Source of the DNA: a virus
Direction: 5' to 3' (one strand)
Length of the DNA stretch: 55,095 bases
Virus record (IMG/VR): IMGVR_UViG_3300009149_008416
Span: 1-55,095 of that record
Shown here in pieces: positions 5,838 through 52,590 of this stretch (position 1 is the stretch's first letter; each line of letters opens with the position of its first letter). A program made the position numbers and the translations under genes. The notes below the pieces were generated by a model that worked only from the letters and a program-made list of their open reading frames with translations, was not told the origin of the DNA and made no database searches.

Positions 5838-5890
5838 TGTATTTGCTCCTTTGTTACAGTTCATTATACAAAGTTAGGAGAACGAGTTAG

Positions 5891-6946: not shown

Positions 6947-6975
6947 AAAAGGCCCGCATAAAGCGGGCCTCTTTT
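6945..6975. terminator. Bidirectional Rho-independent terminator between dnaJ and hsp20
   Basis: A perfect 8-bp GC-rich stem (AGGCCCGC / GCGGGCCT, 6950-6957 and 6963-6970) with a 5-base ATAAA loop is flanked by an A-run on the left and CTTTT on the right. It can stop transcription from dnaJ (plus) and from hsp20 (minus). Confidence 0.92.
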
Positions 6976-6987
6976 AAGTTTGAAAAA

Positions 6988-18367: not shown

Positions 18368-18371
18368 TATT

Positions 18372-26031: not shown

Positions 26032-29000
26032 ATGGACAAACCTATAAAATTTATTCAGTCAAATAAAACAATAGGACGTAATAGACAGGGGCGTAGCGGA
26101 ATTAGTAAAGGTGTCGAAAGACAAGATATAAAAACACAAAAATTCGCTTCTTCTAATACTGTTTATACTCAACCTCACTTCTATTCTCCATTACATACAC
26201 CACAAAACTGGCAGATTCCTAGTCGAAGAGAAGAAATATATCAGTGGCAAATCATTGATGGCCAACTACTTACAGAACAAGGAACATATGTAAATATAGA
26301 AGATTTTGAATTTATACCAGAAGAAATTATAGAAGATGCTGTTACTGGTGGGCTTTTATATAATAATATAGAATCTCAAAATGTTATTACTGGCAAAGGT
26401 AATTTAGAATTTCCAACAAAATTTAGCGTTCGTGAATGTATAGAAAAAGAATGTTATAAATTTAGTTCAACAGGACAGTGGAGAAATTTTTCTGTTTCTG
26501 AAGAACACGGTATTTATGTTATTGACGGGGATGATTATAGAAAAAGAAAAAAAATTAAATCTGATAAAGAATATTGTTTAAAATTGGGAAAGAAACTTGG
26601 TTGGGCGAAAATAGAGACTTCTTTTTTAGATTTAGTTATTAGAAAAGAAGCAAAAGACGTAAAGCTTAATGATTATCTTTTGATTCCAGTTCGTAAATTT
26701 GTCGAAAATGCAATCATACTTAATACTGATCTAGCTTGGAGTATTGGATTGCTCCAAGCTGACGGTCATTTATCCCATAGTGATAATGGAGGATATAATA
26801 CATGTTATACATTAAATAAAAACGAAGTTGTTTGTGAAAAAATAAAAACTATTTTGGAGAAATTTACAAAAAATAAAGTTCAATATTATCCTCACACAAA
26901 TAGTAAACAATCAAAAAGAATAATATTATCTGAAAAAGAACATTATAATAAAATTGCAAAATATACAATTGGAAAACACTCTGAAAAATGTTTTACTAAA
27001 GATATATTTGATTTAGACAAAGAATCTATGATGCATGTATTAGGAGGATATATTGATGGAGATGGTAGTTTTAATAAAGCTGAAGAAAAAATTATAATAA
27101 ATTGCTATTCTGAAAATATGTCTGATCAATTACAGCAGATGTTTTTAATGTGCGGTGTAAAATGTTCTCTAAAAAGATATCCTTTATATGGGGATCATTA
27201 TAAAACCAATTCAAAATGGTGTTATAAAATTTTTATTTCATCATCTGAGATTCCAAAAATTATACCCTATTTAAGATCTGACAAAATGCCAGAAGATTTT
27301 ATTCCTAAAACAACAAGAGAACTCAGATTTTTTTACGAAGAAGATGGAAATATCTTTGTGGCAAGTCCAATAGAAAAAATAGAAAAATTTTTATATTCTG
27401 GACCTGGTTATGATATAGAAATTCCAATTGATAGAAGTTATTGTTGTAGTGGATTTTATGTGAGCAATTGTCGCTTTTTCGTTGAAAATGAACCAAAGGT
27501 CGCTGCTGCTATTCAGTTTTATTGTTTTGACCCAGATGTTCCTATCTTGATGGCGGATGGTGAACAGAAGTCCATATCATCCATTAAAATAGGAAGTAAT
27601 ATTAGATCTCATGACGGCAGCATTAATAAAGTTATTAATAAATATGTAAGACATGCTGACGAAAAAATGATGAAGGTATCTGTTGCTGGAATAAATATTA
27701 GATCATTGAGAATGACGCCAGGTCACGAGGTTTTGACTGATGTAGATGGAAAAATTTGTTTTAAACAAATTGGAACATTGAAAAAAGGAGATTATTTATT
27801 AACTCCTATTAATTATGGAAATGAAGAATCAAATTTCATAAATAACGATTTAGCATGGCTTCTTGGTGCATATGCGGCCGAGGGATGTGGAATACCATAT
27901 GAACATATTAGTAAAATAGGAGTAAGTAGACAATATTATAAAGGAGTTTATTTTACAATACATTCTGACGAAAAGGAAACTTTTGGAAGTAAAATTATAG
28001 AAAAACTAAAAAAATTATATGGTGATTGTAACATAACAAGCTATGAATTAAAAGATAAAAATGCTTTCAAAATATGTGCTTATGGACAATCAATAGCTGA
28101 CGATTTAATTGGATTGTGCCCAGGTAATGCTAAAGATGGAGAAAAAAGATTTTCTCCTTTGGTTATGAATTTAAATCATAAAAATTTAACTGCTATTCTG
28201 GGCGGTTTTATGAGTGGTGATGGATGTTTTGCAGAAAATAATGGATTCCAAGGTGTAGGGGTTTCTAAAAAATTATGTGATCAAATTGCAAATATATGTG
28301 ATAAATTAGGATTAGAATATTCTTATTCAAAAACAAGAATATCTTTAAAAAATAGACAGGTTATTTATAATATAAGAATTTCAAGATGGGCATGTGAATG
28401 TTTACAGGAATACACTCATAAAATACCCAATAAATCTTGTTATGAAAAAAATGGAACAAATATTCCTTATTTTAAAAAAGGAAATTATATTTATAGAAGA
28501 ATTAAAAAAATAGAAGAATTTGATTATTCTGGAGATGTATATGATTTAGAAATAGAAAATAAACATTCTTACGTTGCAAATAGAATTGCGGTTCATAATT
28601 CGGAGTTCCCGATGCAAGGGTTCGAACTTCAATGTGGAGATCCAAAAATAAAAAGATATTATGAAGAACTAAATAAAAGACTTAGTTTAAATTATTGGCT
28701 TCCAATTATAAGTTCTGAATATTATTTGTTGGGCGATGCTTTTCCATTTCTTACTATTCAATGTAAAAAGTGCGGCGGTTCAGGAGTCTATGAAGATAAA
28801 GAATGTGATCATCAGGGCGGAACATTTTCTAAACTTACAGTTTTCAACCCTGACTGGATTGATGTTAAAGAAAATAGTCTTTTTAATGAACCATATATAC
28901 AGTTAAAACCAAACGAAGAATTAAGAAGAATTGTAACAGATAGACAGCCTGTTGAAATATATAATAGAATTCCAGAACATATTAGAATAATGGTTATGGC

Positions 29001-30495
29001 AGGACAGCCGATACCTCTTTCTAATAGGGCTGTTACTCATTTAAAACATATGCCAACACCAATTAGTCCATATGGTACATCTATTATCAGAAGACTATTT
29101 AAAACACTCGCATATAAAGATAGATTAATGACTGCAAACTGGATTGTTGCTGAAAGGCTTATTCTTCCTATTAGAATAATAAAAATAGGAAATGATGATC
29201 GTCCTGCTGGTGCCATTGATATTGCCAATGTGCAAGAACAAATTGCCGCAGTCATGAATGACCCCAACCTTACCCTCGTAACTCATCATGCTTTTACTTA
29301 TGAATTTGTAGGTGCTCAAGGACAAATTGTACAATTAGGGCCAGAATATGAGATGATAACTGGGGAAATTTTAGATGGTCTCATGCTTCCACAGGCCGTA
29401 TTAACATCAGAAATGCAGGGGTATCAAGGAGTTCAAATAGGCGCTGAAATACTCATTACCAGATTAGAAAACTGGAGAAATAAACTTAAAAATTATATAG
29501 AAGAAAGTATTTATCTTCCGGTAGCAAAAATGCAGGGATTTATTGATGAAGATGCAAGTAAAGATCTAGGCGATATTATCTATACATATCCAGAAATAAA
29601 ATGGAATGATCTTAAAATAAGAGACGACACACAAAGAAAACAACAATATTTAGGCTTACATGATGCTGGTATTATTTCTACACAAACACTTTCTGAAATA
29701 TTTGACTTAGATTATGATCAAGAAATAGAAAGAAAAAGAGAAGAAGTCAGTATTCAAATGAGTTTGGGTGGAGGAAATATGGGTGGTATGGGAGCAATGG
29801 GTGGAGGAATGGGCGGTATGCCTCCAATGGGAGGTGGTGGCCCTATGGGTGGTGGAGCGCCTCCGATGCCTGGAGGAGAAATGGGTGGTATGCCTCCGAT
29901 GCCTGGAGGAGAAATGGGCGGTATGACTGGCGCACCTGGCGGAGAAATGGGTGGGGGTATAGGAGGAGCATCTTCTGCTTCAAGAGGGCCAGGAACCGAA
30001 GGAAAAATTTTAAAAAGAAAAACTAAAAGTAGAATTGACAGAAAAAGTGAACAACAACAGCAACAACTTCCTGAAGTTATACAATTAACGTCAATAGAAA
30101 AAATATTATGGAGAAGATTATTTAGTGATCCATCTATTGAAATACCATTTCCAAAATATGCACAATTTAAAGTAGCCAATACACAGGGACAGTCATTTGT
30201 TTTAGATTTTGCTATACCTCATTTGAAAATAGGAATTGAAGCAGACGGCGCACTTCATCAACTGGATGAAAATAAAACCAGAGATGTTGATAGAGACCAA
30301 AGACTTGCAAGAAAAGGCTGGTGGATTCTAAGATTTAATGAGAGGGAGATCGAAAATAAAACAGAACAAGTTATACAAACAATAATGAAATATGTATCTA
30401 TGAGAATGCAGATGATAAAAAAAGAATCTTCATCAACAAAAGAGAAAGTAATTGGGACGATTACACAAACACTGGATTCTCTGACTGAGAGTTAA
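26032..30495 (+). CDS. Portal protein precursor with two inteins and a C-terminal endonuclease-like domain
   Basis: A 1487-residue precursor. Joining residues 1-72, an 18-residue piece (27469-27522) and the part from 28600 gives about 721 residues: WQIPSRREEIYQW-CRFFVENEPKVA...QFY-SEFPMQGFEL, typical of phage portals, followed by a CxxC-type insert (CKKCGGSG) and a helical core (ILDGLMLPQAVLTSEMQGYQ). The portal forms the dodecameric DNA gate at the head vertex. About 64 residues of Gly/Met/Pro (from residue 1247) link to a final domain (about 1355-1465) with DFAIPHLKIGIEADGALHQL and a later RDQRLARKGWWILRFNE. That pattern is DUF559/Vsr-like, a PD-(D/E)xK endonuclease fold. Both inteins and the fusion are unusual. 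Confidence 0.9.
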   Translation: MDKPIKFIQSNKTIGRNRQGRSGISKGVERQDIKTQKFASSNTVYTQPHFYSPLHTPQNWQIPSRREEIYQWQIIDGQLLTEQGTYVNIEDFEFIPEEIIEDAVTGGLLYNNIESQNVITGKGNLEFPTKFSVRECIEKECYKFSSTGQWRNFSVSEEHGIYVIDGDDYRKRKKIKSDKEYCLKLGKKLGWAKIETSFLDLVIRKEAKDVKLNDYLLIPVRKFVENAIILNTDLAWSIGLLQADGHLSHSDNGGYNTCYTLNKNEVVCEKIKTILEKFTKNKVQYYPHTNSKQSKRIILSEKEHYNKIAKYTIGKHSEKCFTKDIFDLDKESMMHVLGGYIDGDGSFNKAEEKIIINCYSENMSDQLQQMFLMCGVKCSLKRYPLYGDHYKTNSKWCYKIFISSSEIPKIIPYLRSDKMPEDFIPKTTRELRFFYEEDGNIFVASPIEKIEKFLYSGPGYDIEIPIDRSYCCSGFYVSNCRFFVENEPKVAAAIQFYCFDPDVPILMADGEQKSISSIKIGSNIRSHDGSINKVINKYVRHADEKMMKVSVAGINIRSLRMTPGHEVLTDVDGKICFKQIGTLKKGDYLLTPINYGNEESNFINNDLAWLLGAYAAEGCGIPYEHISKIGVSRQYYKGVYFTIHSDEKETFGSKIIEKLKKLYGDCNITSYELKDKNAFKICAYGQSIADDLIGLCPGNAKDGEKRFSPLVMNLNHKNLTAILGGFMSGDGCFAENNGFQGVGVSKKLCDQIANICDKLGLEYSYSKTRISLKNRQVIYNIRISRWACECLQEYTHKIPNKSCYEKNGTNIPYFKKGNYIYRRIKKIEEFDYSGDVYDLEIENKHSYVANRIAVHNSEFPMQGFELQCGDPKIKRYYEELNKRLSLNYWLPIISSEYYLLGDAFPFLTIQCKKCGGSGVYEDKECDHQGGTFSKLTVFNPDWIDVKENSLFNEPYIQLKPNEELRRIVTDRQPVEIYNRIPEHIRIMVMAGQPIPLSNRAVTHLKHMPTPISPYGTSIIRRLFKTLAYKDRLMTANWIVAERLILPIRIIKIGNDDRPAGAIDIANVQEQIAAVMNDPNLTLVTHHAFTYEFVGAQGQIVQLGPEYEMITGEILDGLMLPQAVLTSEMQGYQGVQIGAEILITRLENWRNKLKNYIEESIYLPVAKMQGFIDEDASKDLGDIIYTYPEIKWNDLKIRDDTQRKQQYLGLHDAGIISTQTLSEIFDLDYDQEIERKREEVSIQMSLGGGNMGGMGAMGGGMGGMPPMGGGGPMGGGAPPMPGGEMGGMPPMPGGEMGGMTGAPGGEMGGGIGGASSASRGPGTEGKILKRKTKSRIDRKSEQQQQQLPEVIQLTSIEKILWRRLFSDPSIEIPFPKYAQFKVANTQGQSFVLDFAIPHLKIGIEADGALHQLDENKTRDVDRDQRLARKGWWILRFNEREIENKTEQVIQTIMKYVSMRMQMIKKESSSTKEKVIGTITQTLDSLTES
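26248..27468 (+). other. Intein 1 in portal, non-canonical (Gln start), with LAGLIDADG endonuclease
   Basis: About 407 residues interrupt the portal. The first residue is inferred to be Gln (QIIDGQLLTEQG), the end is YVSN followed by Cys of the extein. Block B is SVSEEHGIYVID. LAGLIDADG-type motifs appear as SIGLLQADGHL and VLGGYIDGDGSF. Gln at position 1 and Ser in place of the penultimate His are rare, so splicing may be slow or follow a non-standard path. Boundaries come from extein continuity and need checking. Confidence 0.75.
27523..28599 (+). other. Intein 2 in portal, canonical Cys...HN/Ser, with LAGLIDADG endonuclease
   Basis: About 359 residues beginning CFDPDVPILMADGEQKSISS and ending RIAVHN before a Ser of the extein. 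Block B is MTPGHEVL. LAGLIDADG-type motifs appear as LLGAYAAEGCG and ILGGFMSGDGCF. All core splicing residues are present, so it should splice. It is only 18 extein residues downstream of intein 1. Confidence 0.92.
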
Positions 30496-33563: not shown

Positions 33564-36011
33564 ATGTTAACAAAAACAAAAATAGATTTACAAATGAGAA
33601 ATTTTGAATTTCTTAATAGAGTAAAAATGCCTTTTGCTAAAATGAGCAATGATTTATCTAAAAAAGTATCTTTATATGAGAATTTCGGTTTTGTTAAAAC
33701 CGCAACAAAAAAACCTACAGAACATCCTGGTACTCTTCAATTCCCAGAAGATTTTGATTTAAAAAAAGATATGCTGGATCATCCTGACAATCTTTATGTT
33801 AAAGCTTTGGCTATAGTTGCTGACGAAGCTAATGATAACGGTGATTTTTTTAGTAAAGAAGAACTTCAAAAAAGTTATCATACATTTGTAGGATGTCCAC
33901 TATTCGTAAATCACAAAAATGATGATGTAGAAGAAGCTAGAGGAACTATTATTTATGCCGAATGGTCTGATGAAGAAAATGGTGTGATGATTATAGGAAG
34001 AGTTGATGCCAGAGCCTATCCAAAACTTGCTAGAGGAATATCAGAAGGATATATAAGTGGCGTCTCGATGGGAGCAGTTAGTGCTGGCACTATGATATTA
34101 ATGTCTGACTTTTCACAAAAACCAATTGAAGAAATAAAAGCAGGTGATTTTGTAATTTCTCATAATGGAAATATAAATGAAGTAGAATTTGTACATGGAA
34201 CTTTAGTAGGTAAGGAAATGTATAAATTTGATTTAATGACCTATCATAAATCTCCATTTTTTACTGAAGAACATCCAATTTTAGTTATAGATCAAGAACA
34301 AATTAATTTTGAAAAGAAAGAATCAATAAAAAAAGCAAATTTAAATACATATAATAGAAAAAAAGGGAAAACTTTTGATTTTATTGGTCAAGATGGATGG
34401 AGATCAAAAAGTTATTCACCTGTATTTAAAGAAGCAAAAGATATTAAAAATGGAGATTTCTTATTAATTCCGTCAAGATTTAATTTAGAAGATAGAATTG
34501 ATAATGATGATGATTTTTACTATTTATTAGGTGCATTTATTGGGGACGGATATTTACAAAGAGATAAATATGGAAAAGAAAATGAAATTTGTTTTTGTTT
34601 TGGACTTTCAGAAACTAAATTGCATGATAAAATAATTGAAATTGGAAAAAAATATTTTAAATCAGAACCAAGAAAAATTATTTGTTCTGAAAGAAATGGA
34701 ATGTATATAAGTTTTAGAGACGAAGAAAAAGCACAATGGATATTAAATAATATAGGAAATGGGTCAAAAAATAAAAGACTTAATATAAATATTGATACTT
34801 ATTCAAAGGCTTCATATTTATTAAGTGGATATTTGGATACTGATGGATGTATAGTAAATAAAATAAATCAAAATGTAAGAGGAAATAAATTTGGAGGATT
34901 TCAAATTTCAAGTGCAAATATTTCTCTTCTTGAAGATATACAAAATTTATTAATAGCATGTGATTGTTTATCAAGAATAAGTACAATGTTTAGGGTTCCA
35001 TCAAAAAATAGTGTTGTAAAGATTAAAACTATAGAACATACTTTATCTATTGGCAGTAATTGTTATAACATATTTAGAAATTCTTTAAAATATTCAGATT
35101 CAATTTTTTCTACTCCTATTATAAAAGCAGGTAAAAGTTTTATAACAACAATTTATAATAGAAAATATATGATCTGTCCTGTTAAAAATACTTTTATAAC
35201 AGAATGGAACGAACCAGTATATGATTTGACAGTAAAAAATGATGAAAGTTATATAGCAGACGGAATAGCAATTCATAATTGTCAGGTGGAATATAGTAAG
35301 TGTTCAATTTGTGGAAATGAAGCGGCTAAAGAGGAGGATTATTGTGTACACATCAAAGAACATAAAACTCGTAAATATAACGGTAAAGATGTATATGAAA
35401 TTAATTTTGGTTTAAAATTTATTGAACTTTCTTTTGTCGTTGATCCAGCATGTTCAACTTGTTTTATACAGGAAATTTATGATGTAGATGATTTAAAACA
35501 AAAAGTTGCAGAAATTAAGAATTTTGCTGGTAGATTTAGAAAAATTGCTTCAAAGATTGCCGGCAAAGCTGAGTTAGATAAGTTAAATCAAGCAGAAAAT
35601 CTTATTCAAGAAGTTGCGAAAACAATGTTGGATCAAAAGGAACATCTTGAACTTTCATATGTTACAGATTTAGTAGAAGCATTAGCAAAACTTCAAGAAA
35701 CTAAAGATGAATTATTAGATATGGGATATGAAACATTAGATTCTTCAGGACAACAAAATCAACAAGAAACAGGTTTAACAACTACTCCACCAGAAGAAAA
35801 TTTACCAATTGAAAAAGGACAAAATCCGGAAGAACAACAAGATATAGAGTATGAAAATGCGGGCGCAATGCCTGCGGGAGAAGTTGGTAGTGTAACAATG
35901 CCAACTCCGCTTGCATCCGCCTTTAGAAAAAAAATAATGAAGCAAGCAAAACAAAAAAACTTATCAAATGTTTTTAAAAATAGTTTAAGGAAAAAATGGA
36001 ACAAGGAGTAA
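33564..36011 (+). CDS. Prohead protease precursor with an intein
   Basis: An 815-residue precursor; removing the intein (34080-35279) leaves about 415 residues. The protease is a herpesvirus-assemblin-like serine protease: NHKNDDVEEARGTI gives the catalytic His region, and YISGVSMGA gives the nucleophilic Ser just before the intein. CSICGNEAAKEEDYC after it is a zinc-like pair, and INFGLKFIELSFVVDPAC is typical of this family. The C-terminal 120 residues are acidic and Gln-rich, like a scaffold extension. Such proteases cleave scaffold and capsid N-termini during head maturation. Only a weak AAAGAAAG site precedes the ATG. The stop nearly abuts the next gene, whose ribosome binding site lies inside this one. 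Confidence 0.9.
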   Translation: MLTKTKIDLQMRNFEFLNRVKMPFAKMSNDLSKKVSLYENFGFVKTATKKPTEHPGTLQFPEDFDLKKDMLDHPDNLYVKALAIVADEANDNGDFFSKEELQKSYHTFVGCPLFVNHKNDDVEEARGTIIYAEWSDEENGVMIIGRVDARAYPKLARGISEGYISGVSMGAVSAGTMILMSDFSQKPIEEIKAGDFVISHNGNINEVEFVHGTLVGKEMYKFDLMTYHKSPFFTEEHPILVIDQEQINFEKKESIKKANLNTYNRKKGKTFDFIGQDGWRSKSYSPVFKEAKDIKNGDFLLIPSRFNLEDRIDNDDDFYYLLGAFIGDGYLQRDKYGKENEICFCFGLSETKLHDKIIEIGKKYFKSEPRKIICSERNGMYISFRDEEKAQWILNNIGNGSKNKRLNINIDTYSKASYLLSGYLDTDGCIVNKINQNVRGNKFGGFQISSANISLLEDIQNLLIACDCLSRISTMFRVPSKNSVVKIKTIEHTLSIGSNCYNIFRNSLKYSDSIFSTPIIKAGKSFITTIYNRKYMICPVKNTFITEWNEPVYDLTVKNDESYIADGIAIHNCQVEYSKCSICGNEAAKEEDYCVHIKEHKTRKYNGKDVYEINFGLKFIELSFVVDPACSTCFIQEIYDVDDLKQKVAEIKNFAGRFRKIASKIAGKAELDKLNQAENLIQEVAKTMLDQKEHLELSYVTDLVEALAKLQETKDELLDMGYETLDSSGQQNQQETGLTTTPPEENLPIEKGQNPEEQQDIEYENAGAMPAGEVGSVTMPTPLASAFRKKIMKQAKQKNLSNVFKNSLRKKWNKE
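34080..35279 (+). other. Intein in prohead protease, Ser start, with LAGLIDADG endonuclease
   Basis: About 400 residues beginning SAGTMILMSDFSQKPIEEIK, ending GIAIHN before Cys of the extein. Motifs LLGAFIGDGYL and LLSGYLDTDGCI identify a dodecapeptide homing endonuclease. Position 1 is inferred to be Ser. Insertion lies a few residues after the catalytic Ser, so the protease is inactive until spliced. Confidence 0.9.
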
Positions 36012-41230: not shown

Positions 41231-42100
41231 ATGGCTCTTACAAAAACAGGTCTAACAGACGAAGAAAAATAGCAAGTAGTTGCGCAGGCTCTAGAAACCG
41301 AAGAAGGCCGTATGGCCCTAGCTCAGGCGATGGTTGAACCAATTCGCAGAGCGCTTGAATATCAAGCTGTCGGAAGAAAGTGTCTTATGGTTGACGAACT
41401 TCCACAGGGTGCATTGGCAAGATACGAACGTGACGTTACCGCAAAGGCATACGTTCTGTCTCGTAGAGGCGCTGTACCAGATGCAATTACAGAAGGCGAA
41501 GAGGTACTTGTACCTACATTCGAAATCGCAACTAACCCTCAAATTCGTTTGAGTGAAATCAAAGCACGTAGATTTTATATCGTTGACCGTGCTCAAATCA
41601 AGGCTAAAGAAGCAATCCAAAAGGAAGAAGATAGCAATATCTTTACCGCCGCTTTTGCAGCCGTTCCAACCGCTCATAGCGTTCTCGCTTCAGGCGGTGC
41701 TCTGACAATTACTGCTCTTAACCAGGCTTTTGCTGCAATCGAAGAGCACGATCTTACTGTTGCCAAGATCATCATGCATGCACAGCGTTATGCAGATGTC
41801 CGTAACTTTGGTAAGAACGTCTTTGATGAAGCAACAACCAGAGAAGTATTGGTCTCAGGTCTGTTTGGGCATCTTTGGACTGCTGACATTCATGTTAGCT
41901 CAAGAATGCCTACGAACAAGGCTCTCTTGTTCGCTCCAGCAGACAACGTTGGCGCATTCCCAATTAGACAGGACATCACTGTTCTGCCTGCTGACGATCC
42001 TAAAAAGCTTCGTCTGGGTTGGGTTATATATGAAGAGGTCGGAATTGTAATTATTAACGATTATGCCTTGGCTGAAGTCGAAGTTGGTTCAAGCTCATAA
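41231..42100 (+). CDS. Major capsid protein (HK97-type), interrupted by in-frame TAG at codon 14
   Basis: The frame from ATG 41231 (after AAAGGAG) reads MALTKTGLTDEEK, then TAG (41270-41272), then QVVAQALETEEGRMALAQAM and onward to the TAA at 42100, 289 residues if the TAG is decoded. The body is typical of an HK97-fold capsid (LARYERDVTAKAYVLSRRGA, FEIATNPQIRLSEIKARRFY, VGIVIINDYALAEVEVG). Downstream of the TAG the frame is conserved-looking and GC-richer, so the protein is evidently used. A start at ATG 41312 with GAAGAAGG ahead would give 262 residues. The N-terminus of such capsid proteins is often cleaved, so either route could work. Position directly after protease and scaffold supports the call. 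Confidence 0.85.
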
Positions 42101-42143
42101 ATCTATAACTAACTAAGTATAAGCTAATAATAACAAATAACAG

Positions 42144-42186
42144 AAAAGACCGGGTAAGAAATTGCTCGGTCTTTTCTTTTTTGTAA
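42144..42186 (+). terminator. Terminator after the major capsid gene
   Basis: AAAAGACCG (42144-42152) pairs with CGGTCTTTT (42167-42175) around a 14-base loop, followed by C and a T-rich run. It lies 44 bases after the capsid stop and closes the long late operon. Confidence 0.85.
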
Positions 42187-43011: not shown

Positions 43012-43443
43012 TTAAAATTGCATTTTACCTGACTTCATACCCTTTTTTATCCCGTATTCTTCTTTTATCTTCTTTTTCTCTTCAGAAGTCATTTTTTCTC
43101 CTTCTGCTTTCATCTTTTGAAAAATATCCTGGGATTTAGCCATCTCTTGTTCTGCTTTCCAATCAGATAAACCTTTGTTTTCTTCCTGTCCTCTTTCTTT
43201 TCTGAAACTATCACGGTAATCTTTATTACCTTTCATTCTTTTCACAAGATCTTGATGACGACCAGAATACCCATGTGTACTAAATTTTTCAGTTCCTCCT
43301 ATTACGTGAAAATTTATAGAACTAAAAAGTTTTTTTATATTAGAACTACCACAGAGGTTACAATTATTTTGTTTTTCATTCATTCCATGTTGCACTTCAA
43401 ATATAGAGTCACATTCTTTGCATTTATAGTCATAGATTGGCAT
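43012..43443 (-). CDS. FmdB-type zinc-ribbon protein
   Basis: A 143-residue protein starting at ATG 43443, which follows AAAGGAGAG; an in-frame ATG 69 bases upstream has no such site. The N-terminus is a textbook FmdB-family zinc ribbon: MPIYDYKCKECDSIFEVQHG with C8/C11, then C28/C31, followed by a short beta segment (NIKKLFSSINFHVIGG). In bacteria this family is named for a putative regulator of formamidase genes and is widespread with unclear role. The C-terminal 90 residues are highly charged and helical. It lies divergent from the SpoVR gene. Confidence 0.8.
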   Translation of the reverse strand: MPIYDYKCKECDSIFEVQHGMNEKQNNCNLCGSSNIKKLFSSINFHVIGGTEKFSTHGYSGRHQDLVKRMKGNKDYRDSFRKERGQEENKGLSDWKAEQEMAKSQDIFQKMKAEGEKMTSEEKKKIKEEYGIKKGMKSGKMQF

Positions 43444-43489
43444 TTCACTCTCCTTTGTTTTTACACTTTTTAAAATCATATTCAAAAAT

Positions 43490-43519
43490 TTGTTATCAAT
43501 CGATCTTTTCATGTATAAT
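43490..43519 (+). promoter_or_regulatory. Sigma-70-like promoter ahead of spoVR
   Basis: TTGTTA (43490-43495) and TATAAT (43514-43519) are 18 bases apart, giving a perfect -10 and a four-of-six -35. The promoter points toward the SpoVR-PrkA cluster, whose first start is 109 bases downstream. AT-richness makes chance matches common. Confidence 0.5.
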
Positions 43520-43627: not shown

Positions 43628-45259
43628 ATGATACGTTCTAAAAAAATAATTGAATTAAAAAATATTGAAGAAGCAGTTCTTAAAAGTGCTTCCAATTACG
43701 GAAGGATTATTCCGGAAATTAGATTTTTTATGCTTGATGCCAACGAATTTATATCTCTTCTTGAAAAAAATGTTTATCCAACAAGTCCAATGAATGTATG
43801 GGAAGGAAAAAATGTTATTAAAAGACGTTTTATGAGTGATATTGGTAGAGAAACAGGACTTTATTATGAAGTCGTTCAATGTGGTAATCCTTCATATGCT
43901 TATCTTAATGAAAATAATTCATTTACTACTCAGGCATCTGTGATGTCCCATGTTATAGGTCATTGTGAATTTTCTGAATTAAATATTATGAAGAATTCTA
44001 ATCTATACAGAACAGAGTATGTTATGTATTTAACCAAAAAAATAGAAAATTCAGTTAAAAATATGGGTTTCAATAATTACACAAAATATTGGAATGCATG
44101 TGAGTCTATTATTCCGCTTGTTAATCCAAATTCTCAATATAATTTAGATAATTCTATAGAAACTGAATTTTCTGAAGTTAAACAATCATCTCTTGAAGAA
44201 GAAAAGCAAGAAAGACAAATGTTCAAGGGATATTCTTCTACATTAGATTCTATATTAAGTCCTCTTAATTCAAATGAAATATATAAAGAAGATCAAGATA
44301 ATAAAAATAAAAGAGAAACAATAAGCCGACATGGATATAAATTGAAGGCTCCTTGTCAGGATGTTCTTGGTTTTCTTAAACGTTTTGCTCCTGCCAGTGA
44401 AAATGAAACAAATATTATGGAATATATGTATTTTGTGGCTAGACATCATGATTTTGTAGTAAAAACACAAATTATGAATGAGGGTTGGGCAATGTATTGG
44501 GAAAAGAAAATTATGATGGATCTCTTTTCTGAAAAAATAGTTCCTGATGTTATTGATTATTGCAGAATTTTTTCTGCTGTTTGTAAACCTAGACCATTTT
44601 TTGTTAGAAATCCATATCATGTTGGATATTATATGTGGAATCATATTGAAGATCTATATAGAAAAGGAAAAATTTCTCTTAATTTTTCTGAAGAAAAAGA
44701 AAGACTAAAAAAAGATGAATGGAATAATGGCGGAACAGATAACCCAATAGAAAAAATGGATCATTTAGTTAAAACTATTACTGATTATGAATTTTTAAGA
44801 AGATTTTTAGATAAGGAGCTTATAGATAAATTATATTTGAATAGAATAACTACAGATGAAGCTTTTACTTATGGATTTCTTTCACCAGAAAATCATGACA
44901 AAATAGTTAAAACAGACAAAAAATATGTATATCTTTCTCAAGATTGGGTTAAGAAACAAATGCTTAATTTTTTTGTAGATTTTTATAGACCTTTAGTATA
45001 TATTATTGATACTAATTTTTTAGATGGAGGTTTACTTCTTTTTCATAGACATAAAGGAAGAGATTTAAAAGAAAGTTGGATTCCTCCGACTTTAGGAAAT
45101 ATTAATACAATTTGGAAAGCACCAGTACATTTAATTACTGGCAAATATATATATAAAGTTTCTGGAAAGGAAGCTATAAGAAAAGAAATAGCACCAGTTG
45201 ATTTTAATGTTATTAAAGAGAGAATGTTTGAAAATAAAAAACCATTCAAGGCGGAATAA
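43628..45259 (+). CDS. spoVR: SpoVR family protein
   Basis: A 543-residue protein, close to the size of bacterial SpoVR/YcgB proteins. The family signature is clear: YYEVVQCGNPSYAYLNENNS, MSHVIGHCEFSELN, VARHHDFVVKTQIMNEGWAM (about residue 268), PRPFFVRNPYHVGYYMWNHI and IDTNFLDGGLLLFHRHKGRD. In Bacillus subtilis SpoVR affects spore cortex formation; in Enterobacteria ycgB is a stress gene of the RpoS regulon next in function to prkA (yeaG) and yeaH. The molecular activity is unknown. TTGGAG precedes the ATG. The PrkA-like gene follows two bases after the stop, so the pairing seen in bacteria is retained here. Confidence 0.92.
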   Translation: MIRSKKIIELKNIEEAVLKSASNYGRIIPEIRFFMLDANEFISLLEKNVYPTSPMNVWEGKNVIKRRFMSDIGRETGLYYEVVQCGNPSYAYLNENNSFTTQASVMSHVIGHCEFSELNIMKNSNLYRTEYVMYLTKKIENSVKNMGFNNYTKYWNACESIIPLVNPNSQYNLDNSIETEFSEVKQSSLEEEKQERQMFKGYSSTLDSILSPLNSNEIYKEDQDNKNKRETISRHGYKLKAPCQDVLGFLKRFAPASENETNIMEYMYFVARHHDFVVKTQIMNEGWAMYWEKKIMMDLFSEKIVPDVIDYCRIFSAVCKPRPFFVRNPYHVGYYMWNHIEDLYRKGKISLNFSEEKERLKKDEWNNGGTDNPIEKMDHLVKTITDYEFLRRFLDKELIDKLYLNRITTDEAFTYGFLSPENHDKIVKTDKKYVYLSQDWVKKQMLNFFVDFYRPLVYIIDTNFLDGGLLLFHRHKGRDLKESWIPPTLGNINTIWKAPVHLITGKYIYKVSGKEAIRKEIAPVDFNVIKERMFENKKPFKAE

Positions 45260-45260
45260 A

Positions 45261-47747
45261 ATGAATTTTGATTATAAAAAGTTTTTAGTAAATCCAAAAT
45301 CTGATTCTGAGACTTTTTCAGAATTTATGAAAAATATGGTTGAGAATCCGAAAGTTTATCTTTATACTTCTCCATCTCTTGTTTCAGATGCTATTAGAAG
45401 TTTCGGTTATAAAATAGTTGTTAGAAGTGGAGAGCCTGTTATTAATTATGATATATTTTCTGATCCCTTTTCAGATGGAATTAATGCTATTTATGGACAA
45501 GAGTTTTGTATAGATAAAATTCTTGATATTGTAGACTCAGCAGATCAAGAATCTGTTCCTAGACGAGGCATAATTCTTGTTGGACCTCCATCAAGTGGAA
45601 AAACAAATATTATTGACATGATTACGAGGGGTCTTGAAGAATATACAAGGAAGGAAAATGTTAAAGTATGTTCATTTTCTATAATTTTTGAAGATGATGG
45701 AAAGAAATTTATTTATCGTTCACCATTTATGCATCATCCTATTTTATTAATTCCTATAACATCTGAGAATAAAGGAAAGATTATTTATCCAAGAAAAGAG
45801 TTTTTAACTGAGTTAGAAAATAATAATAATGAATTTTCAATTCCAAATTATTATAAAAATGCTACTTTAGATAAAGTAACATTAAATATATTAGATCATT
45901 TAATATTATCTTATGGTATGACATATTCAGAAATATTAGAAAATTATATATTTGTAGATAGAACTAATTTTTCTATAGCTCAGGGAAGAGGAATTGCTAA
46001 TATTGATGATATGAAAAAACTTATAGCACAAACTAAGTCAATTCGAATTGGTTCTTCTTTTAAAGAAATTTTAGATAAATTTATTCCTGGCATGGATATT
46101 TATACATATGAAGGATCATTAGTTTCTTCTAACAGGGGGATTCTTCATATTCATGATGCGTTTAATAAGGAAAAAACCGAAGATGCATACCGCCCGCTTC
46201 TTATGCTTTTAGGAAGTGGAAAAATATCTGTTGAAGCAACTCAAACTTTTTTAGATACAACTGTTTTTATAACTACAAATTTGGAAGAAATGTCAAATCT
46301 TGAAGAAGAATTAACATCAAAGAAATTATTGGATAGAGTAGAAAAAGTACCTGTTAATTATCTTATTGATGCTAATTCTGAAATGGAAATATTAAATAGA
46401 GATATGGTTGTAATTAAAGATAAATATGATATCGATCCGAATTTAATAAGAGTTGCATCTTATTATTCAGTTATGACTAGACTATTTCCCACAAAAAAAA
46501 CAGATAGTGATTTGCCAAAAAATTGGACTCAGGAGAAAAAAGATTTTTATAAAATACTTCCTCCTGAAAAGAAACTTCTTATTTATTCATCGCAATGTCG
46601 TGATCCAATAAAAACGATCAATTCTTTACCCCCATTACATCAATTTAAAAATGAATGTTCAAAATTAGGCATAGATTTGAATAATCCGGAATCTTATAAA
46701 GATAAAGTTCATATTAATAGTGATGCTATCCCTTTAGAAGAGACGGGATTATTTTCAAATGAACAAATTAAGATGGTTGATGATGAATTTATGAGAATTT
46801 TAATTAGAGAAAATAAGATGTCTGAAGGAAAGTATGGAATGAGTGTTCGGCAACTTCAAAATGTTATGCGAGACACAATCGCATCATCTGACGGAAGAAA
46901 AGTAACTGTTCCTCAATTTATAAAACAATTGACAAAAATTGTAATAGAAGGTTCAACTGTTCATTATTGGTTGAATGATAAATATATTTCTCAAATGACA
47001 AATAATCTAACTATTGAGGAAAGAATGATAGGTGATATTATATTTGATGAAACAGATGGTATGTATGGTGATTATGCAGAAATGATAGATCTTGTGACTG
47101 CATTGTATAATGAAATTATTAAGAAAGAGATAATAATAGCATCAGTAAACAGAGATCCTAAAAAGATAGAGGTAGATTTAAGACGCTATTTGCAATATGT
47201 TTTGTTATATAGGGCATCTAATAATAAATCATTTTCTAAAGTTTTAATAGATAAATTTTCATTTATAGACCCTATAAAAGGAAGTAGAGTTGATTCATAT
47301 GATTCAAAATTTATGCAATCAATTGAATCAATATTATATTCGAAAAATATTGCTTCTGATGAACAGTGTGAAGATTTTAGAAATTCTATGGCTGAAAAGT
47401 TTTTTAAATTAAAAGATTCTGGAGAATTAAAAATAGGAGAAAATAATTCAATTATTAATTCATCAAATGATGGATTAAAACTCTGTTTCGCACAAGAATA
47501 TTCATCATTATTATCGCATAACCGCGTTATGGATGATATTAATATAAATCTTCTTGAAGAAGCTTTTTATTATAAATATAACTCTCCTTCTAAATATAAT
47601 AAATGTACAACTAGAATCCGTGAAATGGTAGATATGATTATAAATAATATGATTAAAAATAATGGATATTCTAAAGATATGGCTTTAGAAACGGTAATTT
47701 ACGCATTAACAGAACAAGTTATTAATTTCGCTGAAATTTTAAGTTAA
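45261..47747 (+). CDS. PrkA-like AAA+ protein, first copy
   Basis: An 828-residue protein starting at ATG 45261 (AAGGCGGA ahead). The N-terminal half is a PrkA-type AAA domain: FSDGINAIYGQEFCIDKILD, Walker A ILVGPPSSGKT near residue 108, SSNRGILHIHDAF near residue 290 (the PrkA NxRGxLEF-like motif) and TVFITTNLEEM near 334. PrkA (about 640 residues in bacteria) was described as a serine kinase and later as an AAA+ protease-like protein, so its activity is debated. The C-terminal region is longer than usual and not recognised. It is one of two tandem copies after spoVR. Confidence 0.85.
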   Translation: MNFDYKKFLVNPKSDSETFSEFMKNMVENPKVYLYTSPSLVSDAIRSFGYKIVVRSGEPVINYDIFSDPFSDGINAIYGQEFCIDKILDIVDSADQESVPRRGIILVGPPSSGKTNIIDMITRGLEEYTRKENVKVCSFSIIFEDDGKKFIYRSPFMHHPILLIPITSENKGKIIYPRKEFLTELENNNNEFSIPNYYKNATLDKVTLNILDHLILSYGMTYSEILENYIFVDRTNFSIAQGRGIANIDDMKKLIAQTKSIRIGSSFKEILDKFIPGMDIYTYEGSLVSSNRGILHIHDAFNKEKTEDAYRPLLMLLGSGKISVEATQTFLDTTVFITTNLEEMSNLEEELTSKKLLDRVEKVPVNYLIDANSEMEILNRDMVVIKDKYDIDPNLIRVASYYSVMTRLFPTKKTDSDLPKNWTQEKKDFYKILPPEKKLLIYSSQCRDPIKTINSLPPLHQFKNECSKLGIDLNNPESYKDKVHINSDAIPLEETGLFSNEQIKMVDDEFMRILIRENKMSEGKYGMSVRQLQNVMRDTIASSDGRKVTVPQFIKQLTKIVIEGSTVHYWLNDKYISQMTNNLTIEERMIGDIIFDETDGMYGDYAEMIDLVTALYNEIIKKEIIIASVNRDPKKIEVDLRRYLQYVLLYRASNNKSFSKVLIDKFSFIDPIKGSRVDSYDSKFMQSIESILYSKNIASDEQCEDFRNSMAEKFFKLKDSGELKIGENNSIINSSNDGLKLCFAQEYSSLLSHNRVMDDININLLEEAFYYKYNSPSKYNKCTTRIREMVDMIINNMIKNNGYSKDMALETVIYALTEQVINFAEILS

Positions 47748-47763
47748 TAGGAGAGTAAAAATT

Positions 47764-49986
47764 ATGCATGAAAAATTAAAAAGTATTTTTGGGGACAAGG
47801 ATGCTCATTACACTGATAATAAAGAAGTGATTTCATTTGATGAATATATTGATGTTGTTATTGAAAAACCATGGGTGAGCAGAAATATGTTTCAACTTTT
47901 GCACGACATGATTGTTTCAAGTGGTGTAGTTCATAAACTTACTCCTGGTAAGCCACCAACTCATAAATATAACTTTTTTGAAGATTCTAAATATGTTGGA
48001 GATTTTGTTGTTTTTGGTCAACAAAAAGCAAAAGAGAATCTTGTTGAAAGAGTTTATAACGCTTCTAGAAAAAATGAAGCTTCAAAAAGATTATGGATTT
48101 TACTTGGACCTCCTGGTTCAGCAAAAAGTAGATCAATGGAAGCAATTAAGACTGGTCTTAATAGATATTCTAAAATGGAAGAAGGAAAAACATATACTTT
48201 GCTTCTTCCAACCATAAATCCAAAACTTAAAAGTAGATCTATGTTTGAAGAGAATGGAATTTATTATATACAATCACCGTGCTTTGAAAGACCATTGCAA
48301 ATTATTTCAATAGATAAAAGAACAGAATTTCTTAATGCCCTTAATAGTTCTGTTGATCAATCATCTATGGAATTATTTCTTGAAACACATAAACATTATG
48401 ATAATGGATTTTCAGTAGATATTGATGGAATTATGTCTCCTGCATCTCAATTTATTGTAGAAGAATTTATGAAAGATAAAAATTTGTCTTTTTCTGAAAT
48501 GCTTGGATATCTTAAGGCTAAGAGAATGATATTTGATGCTAAAACAAAAACCGGCATTGGGTCTTATACTCCAAGAGATGAAAAAAGTCAGGAAGCAGGT
48601 TCTTTAGTTGGAAATATTGATTATACTTTACTTCCACAATTTGGTAGTGAATCTCATCCTTTGGTCCATGATTATAAAGGTGAACTTTGTGTTGGTGCTA
48701 ATGGATTTGTTGAAATTCATGAAATATTAAAGCTTTCAGATAGATTTTTATATGAGTTGCTTTTTGCAACACATGATAGATTTTTTAAGCCTGAAGGTCA
48801 GCCACCTATTCCATTTAATGGTGTTATTATAGGTCATACTAATTTTCATGAATATAATATGTTCCAACAAAATGAGGCTTTTGAGGCTCTGCGAAAGAGA
48901 ACTATGTTTATTGAAATGCCATTTTCAACAAATTTTAGAGAAGAAGAAAAAATATATTCATTCACATATTCTAATGAAGCAAGAAGTTGGAATAAAAATC
49001 AAAAATATACTGCTCATGTAGCTCCTCATAGTTTAGAATTGCTTAGTTTGGCTGCTGTAATGTCTAGATTATATGATTCAAAGAAAACTAAAGATTTACA
49101 GTTAATTCAAAAAGCATTAATTTATGCTGGTAGAGTTGATACTGGAGTAGATAATAATATGGCAAATAGTATTATTGATGAATTTAAGTATACAAAACCA
49201 TCTGAAGGGACATTTGGTCTTGATCCAAGATTTATACAAAATACTTTTGAGACAACTGAACACTTTCAGATAAATGAGTTTCTTGCTAATATTGATAAGC
49301 TTAATAAAGAAGGTGGAGATCAGACAATGTTGGATTCTATATCGTTAAGAAATCCATGTGTTACTCCATTGGATATTTTACTTAAAATGGAAAATGATAT
49401 TAAAGATAATTATGCTCTAAATAAAAATTTGCTTCAGAAATATACTGAAAATGTTATTCCTCAAGCAAAAAGATGGATTTATTCTCAAATAGCTAATGAT
49501 GTATATAGTTCAATTCTAAGAGATGATACTATAATTGAGAATACTTGGAAAAAATATACTGACCATGTTCGTGCTTTTGCTCATAATACAACAGTCAAAC
49601 ATGAAATTACTCAAAAAGATGTTAAGCCAGATGAAAAATTTATGAGATCAATTGAAGAGTATATTGGTGTGCCAGACAGGGAAGTATTTAGAAAAGAACT
49701 TAGTGATGCGATTTCAAGTGTTGGACATTTAGTATTGCTTAAGGATGAGCCATCTTATCAAGCAGCTATTAAAAAATATGTATTTGAAAATGAGTTCAAG
49801 TCAGGAGAAAATATGAAGCTTTTGGGTTGGATTAAGAGCGGTTTTTCGTCTGCCGACGCTAACTCAAAGGAACAAGAACAATTGAATGATACTATTAAGT
49901 ATTTAATGGATAACATGGGCTACTGTGGCAAATGTGCTCACCAGGCGCTTGTGATTACAGCTAACTCTTCTTCAATTGTTGAGTAA
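47764..49986 (+). CDS. PrkA-like AAA+ protein, second copy
   Basis: A 740-residue protein, TAGGAGAG before its ATG. PrkA features are stronger than in the first copy: VVFGQQKAKENLVERV, Walker A LLGPPGSAKS near residue 115, GANGFVEIHEILKL near 310, and FNGVIIGHTNFHEYNMFQQN near 356, matching the PrkA FDGxxxxHSNxxEW motif. PFSTNFREEEKIYSF fits the segment that follows in PrkA. A C-terminal region of about 250 residues ends with a CGKCAHQA Cys pair. The two copies differ in length and sequence, suggesting different partners rather than a recent duplicate. Confidence 0.88.
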   Translation: MHEKLKSIFGDKDAHYTDNKEVISFDEYIDVVIEKPWVSRNMFQLLHDMIVSSGVVHKLTPGKPPTHKYNFFEDSKYVGDFVVFGQQKAKENLVERVYNASRKNEASKRLWILLGPPGSAKSRSMEAIKTGLNRYSKMEEGKTYTLLLPTINPKLKSRSMFEENGIYYIQSPCFERPLQIISIDKRTEFLNALNSSVDQSSMELFLETHKHYDNGFSVDIDGIMSPASQFIVEEFMKDKNLSFSEMLGYLKAKRMIFDAKTKTGIGSYTPRDEKSQEAGSLVGNIDYTLLPQFGSESHPLVHDYKGELCVGANGFVEIHEILKLSDRFLYELLFATHDRFFKPEGQPPIPFNGVIIGHTNFHEYNMFQQNEAFEALRKRTMFIEMPFSTNFREEEKIYSFTYSNEARSWNKNQKYTAHVAPHSLELLSLAAVMSRLYDSKKTKDLQLIQKALIYAGRVDTGVDNNMANSIIDEFKYTKPSEGTFGLDPRFIQNTFETTEHFQINEFLANIDKLNKEGGDQTMLDSISLRNPCVTPLDILLKMENDIKDNYALNKNLLQKYTENVIPQAKRWIYSQIANDVYSSILRDDTIIENTWKKYTDHVRAFAHNTTVKHEITQKDVKPDEKFMRSIEEYIGVPDREVFRKELSDAISSVGHLVLLKDEPSYQAAIKKYVFENEFKSGENMKLLGWIKSGFSSADANSKEQEQLNDTIKYLMDNMGYCGKCAHQALVITANSSSIVE

Positions 49987-49998
49987 GGATAGTGAATA

Positions 49999-52590
49999 AT
50001 GAAATTAATTAATAAAACAGAAACAACTTTAATATTCAATGATATTAATTTAGTACTGGTATATGATAAAGACGGAAAAGGTGTTGATGTGGAAGATTAT
50101 GATATTAAAAATTCTCCAACACTAAAACACTATATAGATAGAGGTCTCGTGGAAGTTAATAAACCAGATGAAGATAATGTTGTATATCGATCAATAAAAA
50201 ATAGACAAGAAGTTGTAGATAGGCAATTAAAAGAGCCTACTAAGATTAAGAAAAACAGTGAGCAATCAGAAAGTTCTAACTCAGACATTATTTTAGGTGG
50301 AGAAACGAAAGTGATATCATCTAGGGTTTATAGGGTTCCCGAGACCTCTTCTATTGACAAATTTAGAAATACAGGAAAGATGGATATATCTTATTGTGGC
50401 CCATGTTTTTCTGGTGATACAATAGTTATTATCACAGATGGTGTTAAATTTATTAAAGATGTTGAAATAAATGATCGCGTTCTAACTCATAATGGGAATT
50501 GGAAAAGTGTAACAGGAAAGCACATAAAGTTTTATAATTCATCCATGTTATCTATAAAGCCTAATTTATTTAATGGAATTAGTATAAATTGTACTCCAAA
50601 CCATAGATTTTATATCAAAAACATAGAAGAAATAAAATGGAAAAAAGCAAGATCAATATCTTCTGAAGATTCTTTTATTATTCCTCCAATTTCATTTGAG
50701 AGTGAGAAAAAATTTATTCTACTTTCAGACTATGTTAAAATAGATTTTGATGAATTGCAAGATGGTTTTTGTTCTGTAATTAAACTTACCGATGGTTTTC
50801 TTAATATTATATGGGAATATATTAACTCTGGAGAAATAATAGGTGATTCAGAAGTTTCTTTTAAGATTAATAAATATTTCTTTTTTGAGTTTATGTCATT
50901 AATGAGAGAAATTTTTGGTGTTAGTTCGGTTAAGTATGTAGAGTATGAAAAATATTTTAAATATACTTGTCATTCTTTTTCGTTAGTTAAATTTTTTGAA
51001 TATTTTTGCGGTTCAGAATTTAAGAAGATTCCATCATTTATATTTAAGAAAAATATATCAAAAAGATTTTTGAAGTTAATACTTTTTGAAAAAGAAGCAA
51101 ATAAAAAAGGAACAATTGTTATATATTCCAGACATCCATTGATTGCCTGGGGCATTAGACTTTTACTTCTTGAATCATCTATTGTATCATCAATTCAGTA
51201 TATCCCATCAAGAAAAAATTATTGTGTATCATTTTCTTTAAAAAAATTCTTTAAGACATTAAAAGATAATAATTTGGTTGATGAATCATTTAAATGGGAG
51301 GATACAACGGTTAAAAATAGACCGGCAACTTATGATTTTACTGATAATGGAATATATGTGCCATTTTATGATATGAAACCAGGAGAATATTCTGAATATG
51401 TTTATAATCTTGATGTTGAAGATGACAATTCATATACTGCTGGTTTTTGTTCTGTTCATAATTGTTATGATGCAGGAGGCTATGCTAAAATGAACAGAAA
51501 TTATATGTTCGGATTATCTAAAAAAGATGATGTTAATTTAAAACTTGATTTACCAAAAGATTTATCAATAAGAAAACAAGTTGAAGAGGAATTAGTTAAT
51601 AAGCTTGATGAATTAAGAAAAAACAAAGTTGGTGAAAATGTGGTAAAAATTTATGGAAGTACGGCAACAGGACCGATGACGGGCAGATATAATATTTTGT
51701 ATACAATGATGGAAACTGAAAAAGTACATCCTCAATATATTGAAAAATGTAACATGGCTAATGAATTATGGTTGCCTACCGATTGGTGCATAGAAAAATT
51801 TAAAGAAAGCGGTGCTCGTTCAAAGATTTATAAGATGCCAATAGGAGTTGATTTTGAGAATTATGTCGAAGGTAAACCTCCAGTAACGTTTGGTGGCAAA
51901 GAGAATGGCTTTATATTCTTAACGGTATTTGGTTGGAGTCTTCGTAAGGGTTATGATATACTTTTACAGTCTTATTATGAGGAATTTTCTAAAAATGATG
52001 ATGTAACTCTTGTTATATGTAGTAGATTTGCTGGCAAGACTGATAAAACATCAAAACAAGTAATTAAAGATAATATTAAGACAATAGAACAATCTGTTAA
52101 AAAATTAAATAAACCAAAACCTCCACTCTTAATAGCTGATGTTATACCAGAGAAGATGATGGGAAGTTTATATAATTCTGCTCATGCATACATATGCATT
52201 TCTAGGGGTGAGGGATTTGGCATGCCTTTTTGCGAGGCCAGTTTATGTGGTTTACCTGTTATAGCTTCTAATTATTCTGGACAGAAAGATTTTCTTAATT
52301 ATGATAATTCATTTTTAGTGGAACCGGAAGGATGTCAAGTAAATCCAGGGGCAGAATGGGTTTCATATTATTATACTGATATGCCAATGGCTTATTTTGG
52401 TAGAGATTCTATTGATCAAACAAGGGCACATATGAGATATGTATATGAAAATTATGCGCTTGCAAAGGATAGAAATAGGAAATTACAGAAGTTTATAAAA
52501 GAAAACTATGATTGGAATAAATGTGTTAACAGGATGTACGATAGATTAAAAATAATCTATTCAGAAATTAAACATAGAGGTGAAAAATGA
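49999..52590 (+). CDS. GT4 glycosyltransferase precursor with an intein
   Basis: An 863-residue precursor; splicing out 50404-51462 leaves about 510 residues. Residues 1-130 form a non-GT N-terminal region of unknown role. The GT-B enzyme starts at SYCGP-CYDAGGYAKMNRNY, the N-terminal donor/acceptor loop. It continues with VFGWSLRKGYDILLQSYYEE and the EGFGMPFCEASLCGLPVIAS motif, whose E-x7-E is typical of GT4 retaining transferases. The sugar and acceptor are unknown; phage GTs modify DNA bases, virion proteins or host glycans. It is followed by a gene coupled through an ATGA overlap. Confidence 0.88.
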   Translation: MKLINKTETTLIFNDINLVLVYDKDGKGVDVEDYDIKNSPTLKHYIDRGLVEVNKPDEDNVVYRSIKNRQEVVDRQLKEPTKIKKNSEQSESSNSDIILGGETKVISSRVYRVPETSSIDKFRNTGKMDISYCGPCFSGDTIVIITDGVKFIKDVEINDRVLTHNGNWKSVTGKHIKFYNSSMLSIKPNLFNGISINCTPNHRFYIKNIEEIKWKKARSISSEDSFIIPPISFESEKKFILLSDYVKIDFDELQDGFCSVIKLTDGFLNIIWEYINSGEIIGDSEVSFKINKYFFFEFMSLMREIFGVSSVKYVEYEKYFKYTCHSFSLVKFFEYFCGSEFKKIPSFIFKKNISKRFLKLILFEKEANKKGTIVIYSRHPLIAWGIRLLLLESSIVSSIQYIPSRKNYCVSFSLKKFFKTLKDNNLVDESFKWEDTTVKNRPATYDFTDNGIYVPFYDMKPGEYSEYVYNLDVEDDNSYTAGFCSVHNCYDAGGYAKMNRNYMFGLSKKDDVNLKLDLPKDLSIRKQVEEELVNKLDELRKNKVGENVVKIYGSTATGPMTGRYNILYTMMETEKVHPQYIEKCNMANELWLPTDWCIEKFKESGARSKIYKMPIGVDFENYVEGKPPVTFGGKENGFIFLTVFGWSLRKGYDILLQSYYEEFSKNDDVTLVICSRFAGKTDKTSKQVIKDNIKTIEQSVKKLNKPKPPLLIADVIPEKMMGSLYNSAHAYICISRGEGFGMPFCEASLCGLPVIASNYSGQKDFLNYDNSFLVEPEGCQVNPGAEWVSYYYTDMPMAYFGRDSIDQTRAHMRYVYENYALAKDRNRKLQKFIKENYDWNKCVNRMYDRLKIIYSEIKHRGEK
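50404..51462 (+). other. Intein in glycosyltransferase, with degenerate endonuclease region
   Basis: About 353 residues beginning CFSGDTIVIITDGVKFIKDV and ending FCSVHN before a Cys extein residue. Block B is NCTPNHRFYI. No clear LAGLIDADG pair remains in the middle; the region looks like a decayed endonuclease. Splicing residues are intact. Confidence 0.92.

Follow-up and report, generated by a model that had tools for sequence, protein, structure and literature searches.

A SpoVR gene followed by two diverged PrkA genes in part of the genome of a giant relative of Bacillus phage G

The IMG/VR record IMGVR_UViG_3300009149_008416, analyzed here over its entire length of 55,095 bases ("the window"), includes three co-directional genes located between a major capsid gene and an intein-bearing glycosyltransferase gene: spoVR, prkA-a, and prkA-b. 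PrkA-b displays essentially intact PrkA motifs, and PrkA-a is a diverged second PrkA with a reduced catalytic signature. We tentatively interpret this set as a phage-borne, fast-evolving, and rearranged version of the PrkA/DUF444/SpoVR stress cassette, in which a PrkA-b motor and a reduced PrkA-a partner would act together with SpoVR, a reading to which we assign a probability of about 0.42. Beyond the identity of the genes and the status of their motifs, each step of this reading is one that we infer. PrkA and SpoVR, both of which are conserved across a wide range of bacteria, have been linked to stress survival and sporulation, with claims of kinase or protease activity for PrkA being disputed.

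Profile matches identified all three proteins far above the corresponding cut-offs (27 bits for PF04293, 25 bits for PF08298 and PF06798). SpoVR matched PF04293 across residues 8-412 (E=8e-40, 137 bits), while PF08298 and PF06798 matched PrkA-b with 170 and 111 bits, and PrkA-a with 65.7 and 59.6 bits, respectively. A preliminary description based on the sequence had proposed a SpoVR homologue followed by two longer and diverged PrkA homologues, and this is what we observed: PrkA-a and PrkA-b are 828 and 740 amino acids long, compared to 644 in Escherichia coli and ~690 in other phages, and the nearest bacterial PrkA proteins are only ~30% identical. PrkA-a most likely begins at the ATG at position 45261, which follows the SpoVR stop by one base and has GGCGG upstream; the TTG at 45198 given in the open reading frame list falls inside spoVR. 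Intergenic gaps are 1 nt between spoVR and prkA-a, 16 nt between prkA-a and prkA-b, and 12 nt between prkA-b and the glycosyltransferase gene. Because of this tight co-directional spacing, spoVR, prkA-a, and prkA-b likely form one transcription unit, with which the glycosyltransferase gene is possibly co-transcribed given how closely it follows prkA-b. Upstream, a terminator-like stem separates the cassette from the head-gene unit. Compared to the usual three-gene cassette, SpoVR does adjoin a PrkA, but the record holds two PrkA genes instead of one, and there is no DUF444/VWA gene in the block: PF04285 yielded no match within the 55 kb, even at E<=10, and neither did a phage-trained profile at 1e-4.

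The contrast between the two PrkA proteins is clearest at the level of individual motifs. Across an alignment of 104 non-redundant PrkA proteins, Walker A, PxDxxxQD (with single substitutions in a few sequences), the first Walker-B glutamate, HxN, and [N/M]EA..R were found family-wide. These are intact in PrkA-b (GPPGSAKS, PRDEKSQE, FVEIHEIL, HTN, and FEALRKR). PrkA-a retains Walker A, the sensor-1 Asn340, and Arg359, but is altered at the PxDExxQD and Walker-B sites (Table 1), reads TTN at the HxN site, where the histidine is gone, and SKKLLDR at the [N/M]EA..R site. These losses are unlikely to reflect alignment slips, since the alignment of PrkA-a to the solved PrkA 9xip (phmmer E=1e-21) crosses the motif sites without gaps. 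PrkA-a also matches AAA+ folds and contains C-terminal insertions of its own. As its sequence lacks the catalytic signature (PxDExxQD, first Walker-B glutamate, HxN, and [N/M]EA), we classify it as a PrkA paralogue and not as a standard PrkA. Neither these motif losses nor the absence of the usual VWA partner had been mentioned in the preliminary description. With a length of 4.93, the branch of PrkA-a far exceeds the median of 0.22, and branches this long prevented trees from placing the window proteins. Single-sequence scans of IMG/VR recovered no close relative of the window SpoVR, PrkA-a, or PrkA-b, nor did an alignment scan recover one for PrkA-a (best match ~27%).

The disappearance of conserved residues from PrkA-a could also be expected if it were a functionless, decaying duplicate, with PrkA-b as the standard PrkA of an ordinary cassette whose VWA gene is encoded elsewhere, in a genome of which the window covers only 55 kb out of probably several hundred. 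We consider this quite improbable: neutral decay is expected to break the reading frame, whereas the PrkA-a frame is intact, longer than that of other PrkAs, preceded by a start signal, and encodes recognizable AAA and PrkA domains in which Walker A is retained.

The duplication was singled out in the preliminary description as unusual, and the survey bears this out, as 31 further viral records with PrkA, including four of 595-642 kb, each contained exactly one copy. A second PrkA was identified at two other loci, namely the viral contig IMGVR_UViG_3300017828_000080 (L322), ordered PrkA-PrkA'-VWA-SpoVR, and contig JACPKP010000014.1 of a Candidatus Daviesbacteria metagenome-assembled genome (L334), ordered PrkA-VWA-SpoVR-PrkA', the prime denoting the second copy. 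As in the window, both second copies are motif-depleted, having lost PxDExxQD, the first Walker-B glutamate, and [N/M]EA, and in all three cases the second PrkA is found beside another PrkA. Unlike the window, L322 and L334 both retain VWA and SpoVR, and thus the gain of a second PrkA and the loss of VWA are separate events. In the tree, PrkA-a and the L322 copy were weakly joined (82/69) and the L334 copy was placed beside its own neighbor (92/69), but with branches of 3.8-4.9 for the second PrkAs, compared to the median of 0.22, these placements are unsafe. From these sequences, repeated origin of a second PrkA appears to be the more likely reading. A single-sequence scan with the L322 copy returned only the sequence itself, and a search for the L334-type copy across 145 genomes of its phylum returned a partial match in one other genome.

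SpoVR and PrkA in phages are already known, and it is the doubled, rearranged form that is rare; in this respect, the novelty implied by the preliminary description does not stand. Scans of IMG/VR, a check of the kind suggested there, recovered at least 175 loci by way of PrkA and at least 458 by way of SpoVR. Among the loci read, 192 were ordered PrkA-VWA-SpoVR and 26 VWA-SpoVR-PrkA, several of these originating from the same contig, and collapsing similar PrkA proteins left 67 and 23 non-redundant loci, i.e., ~90 viral loci with three genes. The order SpoVR-PrkA-PrkA was seen only in the window among all loci read. Thermus phages phiYS40 (YS40_056-059), phiLo, MN1, and Lalka8 encode VWA(DUF444)-SpoVR-PrkA, annotated since phiYS40. 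They resemble the window in their diverged phage SpoVR and PrkA (~24-25% identity to PrkA-b) and in the position of SpoVR before PrkA, and differ from it by a DUF444/VWA gene ahead of SpoVR and a single PrkA. In phiYS40, unlike the window, an open reading frame (YS40_058) separates SpoVR from PrkA; its position suggested a second PrkA, but it was rejected as such, since it matched nothing in Pfam and was not similar to PrkA. The 67 PrkA-VWA-SpoVR loci and the huge phage LR756511, which has a diverged gene set, extend the same families to large environmental phages, with PrkA proteins 27-34% identical to PrkA-b, although here PrkA comes first, is single, and is accompanied by VWA. Other huge phages (LR745206, LR756504, and LR756502) carry a bacterial-like set, in which PrkA shares 62-65% identity with E. 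coli YeaG and groups with gammaproteobacterial PrkA in the tree. Both SpoVR and PrkA have been reported in the jumbo Ralstonia phage RsoM2USA (ORF28/ORF30, PMC8504454), where SpoVR is bacterial-like (56% identical to a bacterial protein) and a single PrkA was reported, unlike in the window. The bacterial sets themselves, E. coli YeaG-YeaH-YcgB and Bacillus PrkA-YhbH-SpoVR, include homologous SpoVR and PrkA proteins but with a VWA protein and one PrkA, and the window proteins are ~20-25% identical to those of E. coli.

Two further candidates were discarded. The apparent PrkA duplication in locus L276 is a single PrkA split into two overlapping frames (479 and 145 bits), and YeaG/YeaH in Enterobacter phage LAU1 share ~98% identity with the E. 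coli gene and are located at the end of the record, suggesting host flank or transduced DNA. A PrkA type with the motif PKDEKNQD was observed in bacteria (L326-L333 and L336, from Abditibacteriota, Calditrichota, Acidobacteriota, and Myxococcota), and groups with the common phage type and not with E. coli YeaG. Among open-licence papers, we found no description of these genes as a general phage cassette. The phage cassette is thus widespread and under-described, and the window represents an intact, unusual variant.

The window SpoVR retains all 11 residues that are invariant across 60 SpoVR proteins (G60, E81, H108, H112, E285, G286, A288, N328, Y330, D386, and P455). In other phages, SpoVR is interrupted by inteins at two sites only, within NEG(W)A (E285-A288) and just before (S/T)NPC, after E81, and three sequences contain both inteins (loci in Table 1). 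Inteins are usually located at functional sites, and hence the targeted motifs probably line an active or binding site; together, the retained invariant residues and the inteins at invariant motifs lead us to expect a functional site in SpoVR. The combination of HxxxH and a downstream NEG motif resembles metal-site arrangements. Since the protein has no HExxH, and its AlphaFold2 model (predicted local distance difference test score, pLDDT, of 80.9) had no significant match among PDB folds (best E=0.39), a metalloenzyme is only a suggestion. The intein sites in SpoVR and the variant found in the window both indicate residues and subunit contacts of interest.

A conserved block of AAA+, VWA, and SpoVR genes in other phages suggests that the three products act jointly, and a PrkA motor traveling with a VWA partner and with SpoVR is suggestive of a remodeling machine. 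B. anthracis PrkA behaves like an AAA+ protein of clade III, and neither kinase nor protease activity was detected when it was purified (PMC13001217), and E. coli YeaG requires its AAA+ domain and works with YeaH (PMC4664914). A PrkA homologue has also been solved as a multi-chain set (9xip/9xiq/9xir, 30 chains). In the reading we favor, PrkA-b would be the working AAA+ motor, and PrkA-a a catalytically reduced paralogue that joins it in a mixed ring or in stacked rings, contributing surfaces for binding or regulation. This motor would remodel or activate SpoVR, or clients presented by SpoVR, during infection, probably keeping host or phage protein machinery running under stress, and PrkA-a may assume part of the job of the absent VWA partner. 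Active and degenerate AAA+ subunits also pair in the Mg-chelatase BchI/BchD, to which a PrkA-a/PrkA-b hetero-oligomer could be likened. A broader proposal, by analogy, is that phages have repeatedly turned a single PrkA motor into a two-component one, with an active and a reduced paralogue forming a Mg-chelatase-like motor and scaffold that would work on SpoVR, here at the expense of VWA; we regard this generalization as unlikely.

Alternatively, PrkA-a and PrkA-b could be separate machines that do not mix, with PrkA-a forming its own homo-oligomer, acting on a new client, and relying on a different hydrolysis chemistry. The very long branch of PrkA-a and its own C-terminal insertions would fit such a scenario, as would its Walker A, Asn340, Arg359, and the aspartate at the second Walker-B position. 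However, almost every one of 100 other PrkA proteins retains the residues that are missing here, the two other second PrkAs, likewise located beside another PrkA, lack residues of the same kinds, and the adjacent, co-directional arrangement of the two genes suggests joint use. On balance, separate machines seem rather unlikely.

Several observations nevertheless weigh against a PrkA-b motor with a reduced PrkA-a partner acting on SpoVR. The VWA gene of this phage may simply be located outside of the 55-kb fragment. The aspartate at the second Walker-B position of PrkA-a is a conservative replacement, so that some hydrolysis could be left. Judging from the trees, the three second PrkAs are probably not one orthologous subunit. 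In L322, partial degeneration also affects the first PrkA. Finally, the SpoVR model did not resemble any known fold at a significant level.

The window covers part of the genome of a giant relative of Bacillus phage G, which is probably several hundred kb in size. Its capsid protein is 52% identical to phage G gp27 and 67-80% identical to most of 80 IMG/VR relatives (80 kept of 586 matches, in records of up to 548 kb), and the portal and gp19-like proteins likewise match phage G. No PrkA or SpoVR was found anywhere in 50 phage-G-like relatives, including phage G itself and records of 333-548 kb, and the cassette is thus a sporadic acquisition in this lineage. The preliminary description had placed the genes in a phage while naming host chromosome joined to a phage contig as a way this could fail. 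Such an assembly artefact would be in line with the lack of any IMG/VR relative carrying the same block, but is very improbable in view of the phage genes flanking the cassette: the upstream side holds capsid, decoration, and portal genes, and in 15 related loci a homologue of the downstream glycosyltransferase follows the capsid gene at a distance of 0.1-2.4 kb, so that the cassette sits within a known phage interval. The low identity (~30%) to even the closest bacterial PrkAs also argues against a host segment.

A role in driving the host into, or keeping it in, a dormant or sporulation-like state, one half of the purpose guessed in the preliminary description, is unproven, and nothing in the present results supports it. 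In its favor, B. anthracis needs PrkA to sporulate and to survive stress (PMC13001217), spoVR has already been reported as a viral auxiliary gene and ranked first in abundance among the sporulation-annotated viral genes of an oxygen-minimum-zone virome, for which such a role was proposed (PMC8940887), and the relationship of the window phage to Bacillus phage G makes a spore-forming host possible. On the other hand, the E. coli homologues serve nitrogen starvation (PMC4664914), and the genes are absent from the 50 relatives, phage G among them. Carriers of the same cassette include Thermus phages, as well as huge phages whose PrkA is of the gammaproteobacterial type. Neither Thermus nor a gammaproteobacterial-type PrkA points to endospore-formers. 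Because of these carriers, sporulation is not the likely core function, and we consider this reading improbable, with protein remodeling, the other half of the guess, faring better. The presence of the trio in ~90 distinct phage loci, in two fixed orders, implies that it benefits infecting phages in many hosts, and hence that its function is separate from sporulation.

Table 1 Features of the cassette, its flanks, and intein-bearing SpoVR loci in other phages
Feature	Position in window, or loci	Strand	Evidence
Major capsid protein, left flank	41312..42100	+	phrog_2522, 215 bits
Terminator-like stem, strong, 16 pairs and T run, 3' of capsid gene	42142..42177	+	
FmdB-type zinc ribbon protein, 166 aa, divergently transcribed	43012..43512	-	PF09723, 47 bits; TIGR02605, 54.8 bits
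SpoVR homologue, 543 aa	43628..45259	+	PF04293; alignment of 60 SpoVR proteins; AlphaFold2 model
PrkA-a, 828 aa, diverged second PrkA: AAA+ domain and PrkA C-terminal domain, reduced catalytic signature	45261..47747	+	PF08298; PF06798; motif table; AAA+ fold matches
PrkA-a Walker A, GPPSSGKT, kept	45582..45605	+	
PrkA-a site of PxDExxQD, reads DMKKLIAQT: P, D, E, and final D gone; Q perhaps kept, depending on the alignment	46008..46034	+	
PrkA-a Walker-B-like segment, ILHIHDAF: first conserved Glu to His, second to Asp	46140..46163	+	
PrkA-b, 740 aa, motifs essentially intact	47764..49986	+	PF08298; PF06798; motif table
GT4 glycosyltransferase split by intein, right flank	49999..52590	+	PF00534; Intein_splicing
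Phage SpoVR with inteins	L013, L015, L017, L262, L275, L277, L053, L065, L087, L264, L269, L301, L004		

The divergent FmdB-type zinc ribbon gene that precedes spoVR was correctly recognized in the preliminary description. It had no homologue among 80 related phage loci, and we found nothing tying it to the cassette, of which it is a mere neighbor. PADLOC defence models matched none of SpoVR, PrkA-a, PrkA-b, the FmdB-type protein, and one phage VWA protein.

Several other genes in the window are of interest. Inteins were detected in three of them, encoding the portal (26032-30495), the phage-G gp19-like protein (33564-36011), and the GT4 glycosyltransferase (49999-52590), with LAGLIDADG endonuclease domains also found in the portal and gp19-like genes. 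The portal protein additionally carries a C-terminal DUF559/MTES-type nuclease domain (residues 1351-1454). A RecJ-like exonuclease and a DprA-like protein are fused in one 775-amino-acid frame (3537-5864, minus strand), and a PolyA polymerase/tRNA nucleotidyltransferase-like head domain is encoded at 18336-19202, with no tRNA gene found in the window. DnaJ and HSP20 chaperone genes lie side by side (5891-7443), and, with SpoVR and PrkA, bring several protein-quality-control genes together in this phage.

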